Of a stretch of DNA of 64,000 nt, positions 46,030 to 50,882 are shown in pieces. The DNA is from Rubrobacter tropicus (GTDB lineage Bacteria; Actinomycetota; Rubrobacteria; Rubrobacterales; Rubrobacteraceae): the NCBI RefSeq assembly GCF_011492945.1, contig NZ_CP045119.1:4092001-4156000 (forward strand), read 5' to 3'. The notes under the pieces were generated by a model that saw only the letters and a program-made list of their open reading frames with translations, was not told where the DNA came from and made no database searches. The position numbers were made by a program, and so were the translations under genes. Positions within the stretch are counted from its first letter, which is position 1. Every line of letters starts with the position of its first letter.

Positions 46030-47298
46030 TCACTTCGCCAGCAGGCCGCTCATGGCCTTCAGGCCTGCCTCCATGCCCTTCCAGGGCACCCCGGCGTGGA
46101 ACGGGTTGCCGAGGCCGAAGCGGAACGGCAGGTAGTAGGCGAGCATCTTCTTGCCCAGCCGCCAGGCCGGGTACGAGCCGACCTTGTAGGCTTCCGGCGC
46201 GTCCGGGTCGACCTCGATGGGCCTCTCCGGTACGCCCGTCAGCCTGAGCGGCACCTGGGCAAAAGTCGCCTTGTCGAACTGCTCCATCACGCACATGCTG
46301 GTCGGCTCGAAGGCAAGCTCCGGCTCCACGCCGAGCACGCGGGAGGAGATGTGTTCGGCCGCCGCGTCGGCCTGGAGGAAGGCCAGGAAGGCCTGTTTGA
46401 CCGGGAAGTTGCCCGCGTCGCCCACGGCGTAGACGTCCGGGTGGCCGACGACCTGTCGGGTGCCGAGCTCCGTCTCTACGAAGCCCCGGTCGTCGCCCGG
46501 CAGCGTCGGGTAGTCGACCTCGGCCACGTAGGGGGAGAAGGTGATCAGGAGGTCGTACGGAAGTGTCTCGCCGTTGGTGTAGTGGACCTCGCCGCTTTCG
46601 ACCTTCTCGGCCGCGTATTCGGTGTGACCTGCGACTACCCGGCGCTCGAACTCGCCGGTAACGACCTCGTGCAGCCTGGGGCCGAAGGCCTGGATGTAGG
46701 TCTGCTCGTAGGTGGACCAGGTGAGATCCACGTTGGCGCGGACCTTCTTGCGCCGGAGGTGGGTGTCGAGCATGAAGACGAGTTCGTAGAGCGGGCCCGC
46801 GCACTTGTTGTTCGGGGCGACCAGGAAGAGGACCCTCTTGTGTTCGCCGCGCCGCGCGGCCTCGATCAGATCGTAGAGCGCCAGCCTGAGGCGCAGCATC
46901 TCGCGCGGCGTCCAGATGGTCTGGGCGTTCTCTTTGAGGCCCGGCACCTCCTCCGGGCGCATGTCGGCGCCGGTGGCGACCACCAGGAAGTCGTGGGGGA
47001 TCTTGCGGCCTCCTTCGGTGGACACGGTCCTCGCATCCGGGTCTATCTCGCGCGCGCGGTCCTCGACGAAGGCTATGTTCTTGCGGCGGGTGGGCCGCTG
47101 TAGGCCCACCTTCAACTTGTCCGGGTCGAGGCCGAAGGGGATGTAGATGGTGTTCGGCTTGAACAGGAAGTAGTCCCGGTCGGAGACGAGGGTTATGTTC
47201 GCCCGGTCCTCGAGCTTCATCCGCAGGTAGAAGGCCGCCTCCAGGCCGCCGAAGCCGCCGCCAAGGACGGTTATGTTGGTCTTGCTCCCGTTCAGCAT
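46030..47298 (-). CDS. Sulfide:quinone oxidoreductase-like FAD protein
   Basis: 422 residues. FAD motif ITVLGGGFGGLEAAFYLRMK at the N-terminus; second motif HDFLVVATGADMRPEEVPGL; C-terminal FAD contact VYAVGDAGNFPVKQAFLAFL. Two cysteines are placed like the redox pair of SQR: NNKCAGPLYEL (Cys166) and TSMCVMEQFDKA (Cys336). The C-terminal stretch WRLGKKMLAYYLPFRFGLG could dock on the membrane. Expected role: oxidise sulfide to persulfide and reduce quinone, feeding the persulfide dioxygenase. DoxX upstream is the usual neighbour of sulfur oxidation enzymes. Confidence 0.9.
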   Translation of the reverse strand: MLNGSKTNITVLGGGFGGLEAAFYLRMKLEDRANITLVSDRDYFLFKPNTIYIPFGLDPDKLKVGLQRPTRRKNIAFVEDRAREIDPDARTVSTEGGRKIPHDFLVVATGADMRPEEVPGLKENAQTIWTPREMLRLRLALYDLIEAARRGEHKRVLFLVAPNNKCAGPLYELVFMLDTHLRRKKVRANVDLTWSTYEQTYIQAFGPRLHEVVTGEFERRVVAGHTEYAAEKVESGEVHYTNGETLPYDLLITFSPYVAEVDYPTLPGDDRGFVETELGTRQVVGHPDVYAVGDAGNFPVKQAFLAFLQADAAAEHISSRVLGVEPELAFEPTSMCVMEQFDKATFAQVPLRLTGVPERPIEVDPDAPEAYKVGSYPAWRLGKKMLAYYLPFRFGLGNPFHAGVPWKGMEAGLKAMSGLLAK

Positions 47299-48390: not shown

Positions 48391-48719
48391 TTCACCCATA
48401 ACTGCGCCTCGTTCCCCGCGTGGCGCAAGGGGCGAACGGCGGCCGAAAAGGTCCGAACCTCGCGGGACTGCCTCTTGCCGAAGACGTTCCCGCCGGATGA
48501 GAACGCCGCCCGGCGGAACGCGCCGGCGAAGGAGGTCCTGTTCGTGCCGGGCCACGTTCGGGGATGCCGCCGGGACCGCCCCGGGTCGCCTCCTGCGTCG
48601 GACCGTGACGGCCCGTATAATCGTGACGTAAGGCACTTGCTCTTGCGCGTCAGCCGGGTGGGTTTCTGGTGCCGTCGCCGGGGCGACACGGGATACTCTT
48701 TCGGACGGGGAGGGTGGTT

Positions 48720-49247
48720 GTGGATCGGGCACTGCAGCGGGCGGACGCGGGCCACGGACACCGCAAGCTGGCCGTGGGTTGGTTCTCTTTCACCTGTTGC
48801 GAGGACAGCACCATCCTCCTGGCGGAGCTATTGAACGACCACCTCGACGAATGGACGAAAGTGGTCGAGTTCCGGCACATGAAGACGCTCAAGTCCAGGA
48901 ACTCTATGGAGGACCTCGACGTGGCGTTCGTCGAGGGGGCGATCTCTTCGGATTCACAGGCCGAAGAGGTGCGGCGCATCCGGGAGAACGCGCGGTACGT
49001 GGTGGCGATAGGCGCCTGCGCCTGTACCGGGAAGCCTTCGACGAGCCGCAACCAGTTCGTCGACGAGCAGATAAACGAACGCATCAGGTGGTACCTGGAC
49101 CACTTCGACTACGGCAGGGACGTGAAGCCCCTGGACGGTGTCATAAAGGTCGACGACATGGTGCGCGGTTGCCCGATGAAGGTGCAGTCTTTCGAGCAGA
49201 CGTTGAACAAGTACCTGGAGCTGTTCGAGGTTACCCGGCATGGCTAA
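48720..49247 (+). CDS. NiFe hydrogenase small subunit-like protein, minimal form
   Basis: 175 residues from GTG 48720 (ggacggggagggtg upstream). It has the small-subunit core: GWFSFTCCEDSTILLAELL (Cys26, Cys27), a long helix, VVAIGACACTGKPS (Cys100, Cys102) and MVRGCPMK (Cys151), enough for one proximal [4Fe-4S] cluster. No medial or distal cluster domain, signal peptide or membrane helix, so it is cytosolic and closest to group 3 hydrogenases or related bidirectional enzymes. The CCED arrangement departs from the normal CxxC. It overlaps the large-subunit gene by 8 bp. Confidence 0.8.
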   Translation: MDRALQRADAGHGHRKLAVGWFSFTCCEDSTILLAELLNDHLDEWTKVVEFRHMKTLKSRNSMEDLDVAFVEGAISSDSQAEEVRRIRENARYVVAIGACACTGKPSTSRNQFVDEQINERIRWYLDHFDYGRDVKPLDGVIKVDDMVRGCPMKVQSFEQTLNKYLELFEVTRHG

Positions 49248-50541
49248 CAGGAACATAGTCATAGACGCCATCACGAAGATCGAGGGCAACGCCGGGCTCG
49301 AGGTGGTGGTCGAGGACGGGGCGGTCAAGGACCTGCGGTTCAAGATCACGGACTACAGGCGGTTTTTGACGGTGGCGGCCAGGGGCAAGCGGACCGTCGC
49401 GGTCCCGTCTTTTCTCTCCCGCATCTGCGGCACCTGCTCCGTCTCCCACCTCTTCGCCTCGCTGATGGCGATAGAGAGCGCGCAGGGTATAGAGGTTACG
49501 GAGCAGACCAGGACGCTTCGCCGGCTGGCTTACGACGGGCTCATGATCCGGGACCACGCCCTGCACCTGTATTTCTTCGTGCTGCCCGACGTCCTCGGCG
49601 TCGATTCGATCTTCGACATCCCGGACGACCCGGGCTCCTTGGGCCACACGCTCCTGCGCGACTCGTTCGACATCAAGCGCCTCGGCACGGATATATCCAA
49701 CGCCGTCGCGGGCGCCGCGATCCACGCCCCCCTTCCGACCGTGGGCGGGTTTCTGAGGAACCCAGATCAGACGAAGTTCCCCGACCTGGCCACGCGCCTG
49801 GAAGCCGTCCGCCCGCAAGTGCTGAGGGGCATAGAGGCGTTCCTGGAGTGGGACGCGAGCCTCGTCCGAAACTCGGACTACCTGTGCCTCCGGAACGACG
49901 AGCGGTTCGATTTCCTCGAAGGGGACGTGCTGAACTCGAACGGCGAGAGGGTCTCCGAGTCCCGGTTCGCGGACTACCTGCAGTACGTACGAATCCCCCA
50001 CTCGCAGGCGGAGGGCTACCGGTTCTCCGACACCCAGGAGGACTACCTCGTTGGCGCGCTCGCGCGGATCAACCTGAGCCGGGACATCCTCCACCCGAGA
50101 ACGCGGGCCGACGCGGCTGACGCCCTCTCGGCCTTCCCCTCCGACAACATCTACCACAATAACCTCGCCCAGGCCGTCGAGGTCCTTCACTGCGTGGACG
50201 AGGCGATAGACATCCTGAACACGATACGGGTGGCCGACGAGGGGCCCGTGCGAGATCCCGCGCGGTCCGGCAGGGGCGTGGCCCTGATCGAAGCCCCGCG
50301 GGGCCTGCTCTGCCATTCTGCGACGGTAAGCGACGAAGGAATAGTCGAAGACTACGACGTGGTGGTTCCGACGGCCCAGAACCAGATAAACATCGAAAAC
50401 GACCTGAGGTACCACTTCGAACGGAACCTCGACAAAGACGACGACAGCCTGAAGCTGGACGCCGAGGGCATCATCCGCGCCTACGACCCCTGCATGTCCT
50501 GCGCCACCAACTTCCTCAAGATGGACCTGACGCGGAGGTAG
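49240..50541 (+). CDS. NiFe hydrogenase large subunit-like protein
   Basis: 433 residues. N-terminal KIEGNAG (Glu15), L1 motif RICGTCSVSH (Cys63, Cys66, His70) and L2 motif DPCMSCATN (Cys418, Cys421), so all four nickel cysteines are present. The residue that is normally His in DPCxxCxxH is Asn424, and only nine residues follow, a very short tail for protease-dependent maturation. It pairs with the small subunit upstream and probably oxidises or produces H2 with a soluble electron carrier; no diaphorase subunit gene is nearby. Confidence 0.88.
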   Translation: MANRNIVIDAITKIEGNAGLEVVVEDGAVKDLRFKITDYRRFLTVAARGKRTVAVPSFLSRICGTCSVSHLFASLMAIESAQGIEVTEQTRTLRRLAYDGLMIRDHALHLYFFVLPDVLGVDSIFDIPDDPGSLGHTLLRDSFDIKRLGTDISNAVAGAAIHAPLPTVGGFLRNPDQTKFPDLATRLEAVRPQVLRGIEAFLEWDASLVRNSDYLCLRNDERFDFLEGDVLNSNGERVSESRFADYLQYVRIPHSQAEGYRFSDTQEDYLVGALARINLSRDILHPRTRADAADALSAFPSDNIYHNNLAQAVEVLHCVDEAIDILNTIRVADEGPVRDPARSGRGVALIEAPRGLLCHSATVSDEGIVEDYDVVVPTAQNQINIENDLRYHFERNLDKDDDSLKLDAEGIIRAYDPCMSCATNFLKMDLTRR

Positions 50542-50882
50542 TCGATCTCCCCCTCCTGGGGCAAGCCGATAACCGCGACATCCCCCACCCTGCCTATCTT
50601 CTTGAGGTACCTGAGCTGGAAGGCGAGGTCGAAGTCGTGGACGGTCCCGCGGGGGGATAGGGCGAACCCGTGTATCTCGTCGTCCGGGATCAGGGCCACG
50701 CCCGGTATCCCGCGGACCGTATCGAGGATCACCACGCGGTCTTCGCCCGCGAAGGGGACGTCCTCGTTCGGTTCGACGAAGACGAACGAGACGTCCCCCA
50801 TGGTGCCCTTCAAGTGTTCAGCGACCTCTATCGCCTTACTATCTTCCGGGACGTCCGGGTTTCCGAGAACATAGACCTTCAT
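50481..50882 (-). CDS. Hydrogenase maturation protease
   Basis: 133 residues: MKVYVLGNPDVPEDSKAIEV then VSFVFVEPNEDVPFAGEDRV, VILDTVRGIPGVALIPDDEI and AVIGLPQEGEI. The (L/V)GN(P/x)D N-terminus, the ILDxVRG strand and overall size fit the HyaD/HycI peptidase family that trims the large-subunit C-terminus after nickel insertion. It is transcribed toward the large-subunit gene and the two coding ends overlap by 61 bp, so each antisense end is constrained by the other. Confidence 0.8.
   Translation of the reverse strand: MKVYVLGNPDVPEDSKAIEVAEHLKGTMGDVSFVFVEPNEDVPFAGEDRVVILDTVRGIPGVALIPDDEIHGFALSPRGTVHDFDLAFQLRYLKKIGRVGDVAVIGLPQEGEIDYLRVRSILRKLVAQDMQGS

Follow-up and report, generated by a model that had tools for sequence, protein, structure and literature searches.

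A probable hyd2-type [NiFe]-hydrogenase in Rubrobacter tropicus, with a predicted maturation protease encoded antisense across its cleavage site

We examined three adjoining genes within a 64,000-nucleotide stretch of the Rubrobacter tropicus genome (hereafter the window), and consider it probable that the host gained them by horizontal transfer and that together they specify a cytosolic [NiFe]-hydrogenase that is catalytic and belongs to the hyd2 type of Patescibacteria. In the account that we favor, the large subunit would hold the NiFe site and the short small subunit a single proximal [4Fe-4S] cluster, probably bound through Cys-x-x-Asp instead of Cys-x-x-Cys, which would deliver electrons directly to a soluble partner with a potential close to that of ferredoxin. 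Following metal insertion, a dedicated protease is predicted to cut behind Asn425 and remove nine residues. The native Hyp cluster of the host, orphaned by loss of the hydrogenase usual in its family, would most likely mature the enzyme.

The predicted catalytic large subunit (49240..50541, + strand; 433 aa) is encoded by a gene that shares 8 bp with that of the small subunit. It matched Pfam NiFeSe_Hases at E 3e-25 and aligned over its full length with the alpha subunit of P. furiosus soluble hydrogenase I (SHI) at E 4e-57; the alpha and delta subunits of SHI are the closest solved relatives of the pair. Both Ni-Fe ligand motifs (RxCGxC and DPCxxC) are present, as RICGTC and DPCMSC, and residues C63, C66, C418, C421 and R354 are invariant in the large-subunit alignment (A1), with E15 nearly so. 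The protein ends in DPCMSCATN-FLKMDLTRR. As a preliminary description of this DNA had noted, an Asn (Asn425) stands where His is usual (His or Arg being expected three residues behind the last Cys) and only nine residues follow; this codon, the tail and the stop occupy 50512..50541 on the + strand, with cleavage predicted behind Asn425. In FrhA, the C-terminal His and two Glu together bind an ion (PMC3591093), and by analogy an Asn side chain might take over this role. Among more distant Patescibacteria large subunits, those at loci L103, L104, L106 and L108 end exactly at the terminal His, lack a tail and therefore would need no protease, while that at L105 ends in Gln.

The small subunit (48720..49247, + strand; 175 aa) lies in an open frame spanning 48669-49247 and probably starts at GTG 48720, behind GGAGG at 48709-48713. 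It matched Pfam Oxidored_q6 at E 2e-20, and its fold, comprising one Fe-S cluster domain, resembles that of SHI delta and HoxY-type subunits. The preliminary description read CCED in place of the normal CxxC. Those residues are present, within the motif FTC43-C44-E-D46-S47 (FTCCEDS), but the alignment of hyd2-type small subunits (A2) changes how they are understood. In these proteins FTC[CS]ED[SN] replaces the canonical FTxCxGC: Ser often stands in for the first Cys of the canonical motif and Ser or Asn for the second, and a Cys one position ahead of the first is nearly invariant. The motif thus appears better read as C-x-E-D, shifted by one residue from CxxC, and the variants at L036 (FTCCEGC) and at L055 and L058 (TCDEGC) look intermediate. 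A tandem CC as in NuoB of complex I is less likely, since Ser replaces the second Cys in many members, with the first Cys retained and the Asp mostly so. Because the remaining two ligand positions, C117 and C168, are invariant and the C-terminal ferredoxin-like part is missing, a single Fe-S cluster is expected. Asp is a likely candidate ligand for it, with precedent in FrhG of the group 3a F420-reducing hydrogenase, where Asp60 takes the place of one proximal-cluster Cys (PMC3591093); FrhG differs, however, in possessing further clusters and an F420 partner, and in hyd2 the motif is offset by one position.

We next consider where the enzyme belongs. The NCBIfam group 3b models HydA and ShyA matched the large subunit over its full length, albeit with 217.7 and 219.9 bits against cut-offs of 880 and 700, respectively. 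Across the bacterial and archaeal genomes scanned, relatives sharing 62-67% identity were nearly confined to Patescibacteria (Woese-, Davies-, Collier-, Shapiro- and Amesbacteria, WWE3 and unnamed bins), the exception being one on a short contig assigned by binning to Lokiarchaeota; an outer group of relatives, at 41-51% identity, came from Patescibacteria and DPANN archaea. In a tree of 70 large subunits, the two-subunit clade received a support of 100/100 on a branch of 1.31, apart from ordinary group 3b. Within it, an Asn subclade (also 100/100) contained the host sequence on a long branch (0.45) lacking a supported sister. The terminal Asn and tail, as judged from these sequences, define one subclade and so are features of a lineage rather than oddities of a single gene; a subgroup sharing both does exist, as the preliminary description had considered it might, but it is little known instead of well known.

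From size, subunit content and distribution, rather than from sequences of that paper, we infer that this clade is the hyd2 of Jaffe et al. 2020, described there as specific to CPR bacteria and as having an uncertain function (PMC7304191). As far as that description extends, the two agree in having two subunits, a short small subunit (~164 aa in hyd2), no adjacent beta or gamma subunit, and a separate long-branch clade beside group 3b, which bears out the earlier suggestion of an unusual two-subunit cytosolic class. HypC is reported near some hyd2 loci (PMC7304191). Unlike the hyd2 loci described there, the host copy belongs to a genome that is not from Patescibacteria, is much larger, and encodes a complete complement of Hyp proteins. 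The main text of that paper does not mention a protease, and we did not find the terminal Asn, the C-x-E-D motif or the antisense overlap described there.

Might these genes instead encode an NAD(P)H-linked hydrogenase of the ordinary group 3b kind, with its diaphorase subunits located elsewhere in the genome? SHI, itself of group 3b, aligns with the large subunit end to end and with the small subunit over its N-terminal domain, and the HydA and ShyA models span the full length. Nevertheless, the score falls far below the model cut-off (220 versus 700 bits), the clade is distinct and long-branched, and the small subunit is 175 aa with CCEDS, as opposed to ~250 aa with a canonical CxxC. It lacks the part that carries two further clusters, so that one cluster is expected where SHI has three. 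Unlike SHI, the host has no beta and gamma subunits and bears Asn for the terminal His, and no beta or gamma genes adjoin the Patescibacteria relatives, in agreement with what PMC7304191 relates of hyd2. We therefore regard an ordinary group 3b enzyme as very unlikely.

We give almost no credence to the other function proposed in the preliminary description, a regulatory H2 sensor reporting to a signalling partner. Two subunits and no obvious electron partner near the host genes would suit such a role, but the large subunit retains its tail and a dedicated protease, whereas regulatory hydrogenases are not known to have such a tail. Moreover, neither a kinase nor a PAS protein was present among the neighbors scanned, and clade members in Patescibacteria adjoin metabolic genes.

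The host genome (4.58 Mb, two contigs) contains a single PF00374 gene. For 20 kb of the second contig, the best match was a plasmid of Rubrobacter marinus (36% coverage at 79%), in keeping with a host from the Rubrobacteraceae. A homolog was absent from 38 genomes of the same genus or family at the threshold used, and none of the 395 other genomes sampled from the phylum contains a hyd2-type hydrogenase, the next best match among the 396 (host included) being 33% identical. On this basis, a transfer of the hydrogenase from Patescibacteria is very probable. We rejected the possibility that a Patescibacteria contig contaminates the assembly, as the gene sits on a 4.38 Mb contig, with GC 0.64 and third-position GC 0.88. 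The hydrogenase genes have a GC content of 0.62-0.64 (0.88 at third positions of the large-subunit gene), compared to 0.68 for the window as a whole and 0.33-0.46 at four Patescibacteria loci.

A transferred set of genes could be a mere passenger, unmatured or devoid of any physiological role. Its restriction to one genome, its long branch, and the failure to find the donor-side neighbor genes adjacent or POR in the host would fit this explanation. Set against it are three intact frames, retained catalytic residues, the retention of the antisense overlap together with its stop, and a base composition that, overall and at third positions, lies far from that of the Patescibacteria loci, which argues that the genes have long been kept. 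We therefore consider a passenger distinctly unlikely. A sigma-70 promoter scan returned nothing, and a dormancy-regulon-like box near the genes was dismissed, since the window held 5 matches versus 9.9 expected. Positions 36644-61000 of the window are rich in stress and sulfur genes, which encode three universal stress proteins, Hsp20, a P-type cation ATPase, a PEP-synthase-like enzyme, a metallo-beta-lactamase/rhodanese fusion, a sulfate permease, DoxX and an SQR-like flavoprotein.

The third gene (50481..50882, - strand; 133 aa) is convergent with that of the large subunit and is predicted to encode a maturation protease of the HycI/HybD type. It narrowly passed the Pfam HycI model (PF01750; 23.1 versus a cut-off of 23 bits), while NCBIfam returned no match. 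Foldseek matched its modelled fold to HybD (1cfz; E 8e-6), and the metal-ligand positions D14, D54 and H82 are invariant in the protease alignment (A4). It thus resembles HybD and HycI in modelled fold and in these three positions, but differs from them in being short, in sitting at the Pfam threshold, and in lying antisense across the cleavage site of its own substrate. The overlap, which the preliminary description had correctly given as 61 bp, spans 50481..50541: the + strand encodes the large-subunit C-terminus with its cleavage site, and the - strand the C-terminal helix and stop of the protease. The overlapped stretch encodes helix 115-132, which is confidently modelled.

Among the 27 Asn-subclade members with a locatable protease, all end in Asn and 24 have an overlap of exactly 61 bp; at the other three (L036, L042 and L043) the overlap is lost and the protease is relocated or ends earlier. 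Chance is a poor explanation, as Asn, the length of the tail and the 61-bp overlap all recur in two dozen genomes besides that of the host. The remaining members of the larger clade end in His, and in these lineages the overlap is absent or measures 14 to 62 bp in a different frame. Within the Asn clade, the wobble positions of both genes fall on the same base, and as a result conservation of the large subunit alone dictates most of the overlapped protease residues. Selection on the protease tail was for this reason rejected as a conclusion from amino-acid conservation, and synonymous sites were compared instead with expectations drawn from the codon usage of each gene. At the three sites where a change synonymous in the large subunit would alter the protease, 23 mutually related rows that had been picked for having the overlap carried the protease-neutral codon in 19 (P417; 10.5 expected), 20 (S420; 11.9) and 22 (T423; 13.3) cases. 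In those same rows, the codon of A414 that keeps the antisense stop occurred in 23/23 (12.4 expected) and that of a control site, A422, in 17/23 (12.4 expected), while the 61-bp overlap was present in 23/23 versus 10.7 expected upon synonymous codon resampling. The codon type of Ser420 (TCN in 26/26 Asn-clade rows) was set aside, since all other invariant Ser codons there are also TCN.

The overlap may be passive, the protease having lost its stop and read through into its neighbor to gain an extension devoid of a role. That most residues of the extension follow from the conserved large-subunit sequence is compatible with this possibility, as are the relatedness of the rows and the fact that L036, L042 and L043 still have the codon responsible for the antisense stop. 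The synonymous choices at P417, S420, T423 and A414, the excess of retained 61-bp overlaps, and the participation of the stretch in a modelled C-terminal helix point the other way, and although a passive origin carries real weight we lean against it. Because the rows are related and selected for the overlap, and because the three relocated loci keep the stop-making codon, the bias of synonymous codons toward the antisense frame and its stop provides support for, but not proof of, a maintained overlap. The overlap also bears on the terminal residue. The preceding Thr codon is ACT in 5/18 loci by one count and 8/26 rows by another, and following ACT a His codon would introduce TGA into the protease frame, so that the protease would end nine residues earlier; accordingly, we hypothesize that the change from His to Asn may have been fixed along with overprinting. 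A literature search for antisense overlaps between hydrogenase and protease genes returned nothing relevant.

The absence of a nearby electron-transfer subunit, also noted previously, is correct for the host: no subunit of the beta or gamma type occurs among the neighbor genes scanned, and the nearest redox protein is a divergently oriented sulfide:quinone-reductase-like flavoprotein (46030-47298). It does not extend to the Patescibacteria relatives, where likely partner genes adjoin. At about ten Asn-clade loci, the order is small subunit, large subunit, protease, DUF6390, EamA transporter, single-cluster ferredoxin, KorB, KorA and a fusion of acyl-CoA synthetase with a flavin reductase, single members being missing from some. 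The fusion (941-972 aa) joins an ADP-forming acyl-CoA synthetase to a C-terminal FNR-like FAD/NAD(P) reductase (L035:7289-10135, L038:12677-15523, L046:8420-11245 and others; minus strand); it weakly matched the SHI gamma model and is a candidate for the missing electron-transfer module. Since genes for ferredoxin, 2-oxoacid:ferredoxin oxidoreductase and the synthetase-reductase adjoin, the neighborhood suggests fermentative H2 production, in which a 2-oxoacid would yield acyl-CoA, the acyl-CoA an acid together with ATP, and the electrons would be disposed of as H2. The partner in Patescibacteria would probably be the adjoining ferredoxin or 2-oxoacid:ferredoxin oxidoreductase, and perhaps also the fused flavin-reductase domain. 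An engineered SHI alpha-delta dimer, active without beta and gamma, takes electrons directly from POR (PMC3200332), which shows the principle of such direct transfer. PF01558, a POR domain, had no match in the host, in contrast to 11/14 control genomes, and the host partner would thus differ from that in Patescibacteria. The lack of this POR gamma domain and of the Patescibacteria neighbor genes counts against our hyd2-type account, as do the long branch of the host gene and the scarcity of HypD and HypF in the Patescibacteria relatives (below).

A search for hyp maturation genes, as the preliminary description had proposed, located a full native set in the host. HypB, HypE, HypD, HypC and HypF are clustered ~1.58 Mb from the hydrogenase genes, together with a frame that reads as HypA, and are 73-91% identical to those of relatives. 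The cluster also contains a second HycI-type protease (L065:12923-13375, at about 2.561 Mb in C1 of the host genome). In the relative G024, a ~600 aa hydrogenase of a different kind is encoded no more than about 6 kb from the Hyp cluster; that hydrogenase is missing from the host, which has none besides the acquired enzyme. We infer that an orphan native Hyp set, left by a lost family hydrogenase, most likely serves the acquired enzyme.

The Patescibacteria relatives differ. HypC was found in 24 of the 26 Patescibacteria genomes with this hydrogenase and HypF in one, while HypD was detected in 2/46 genomes with the hydrogenase and in 0/24 of the Asn clade. Of 20 genomes from Patescibacteria whose large subunits are more distant, 6 gave HypD matches (two being fragments), which indicates that the search can detect the protein, and incomplete genomes seem unlikely to account easily for the scarcity of HypD and HypF. 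Seven Patescibacteria HypC proteins, from genomes without a HypD match (L035:78-329, L037:7261-7551, L049, L071, L073, L074 and L078), keep Cys2 but read VQMGI versus the canonical VHVGF, and thus lack the proposed iron-ligand His, which is thought to aid iron binding on the HypCD scaffold (PMC12134894). In most relatives the hydrogenase genes have DUF6390 as a neighbor (L034:4525-5232 and 18 other loci), and in alignment A3 the 27 columns at its C-terminus bear a weak resemblance to HypC (GDxVAVHWG). From its position and sequence it is a candidate maturation factor; a search for it gave 0 matches in the host, and 0 in control genomes as well.

These observations call into question a standard active site in the relatives. 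One joint reading, which we offer tentatively and think rather unlikely to hold as a whole, is that Patescibacteria assemble the hydrogenase in the absence of HypD and HypF, relying on a HypC devoid of the proposed iron-ligand His and possibly aided by DUF6390, such that the active site would arise by an unknown route, be supplied by partner cells, or not be the standard Fe(CN)2CO; that His-to-Asn was fixed through antisense overprinting; and that the host represents the one known member outside small-genome lineages, equipped with a complete canonical Hyp set.

Taken together, the overlap between substrate and protease represents a conserved case in which two interdependent genes share the very DNA that encodes the site of action of one product on the other. 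With HypD and HypF so scarce beside a kept hydrogenase, HypC and protease, formation of a [NiFe] site without HypD becomes a directly testable question. Finally, hyd2 has so far been an enzyme without a function, and a copy in a bacterium with a large genome, assembled in two contigs and encoding Hyp proteins, offers a practical route to make and assay it.
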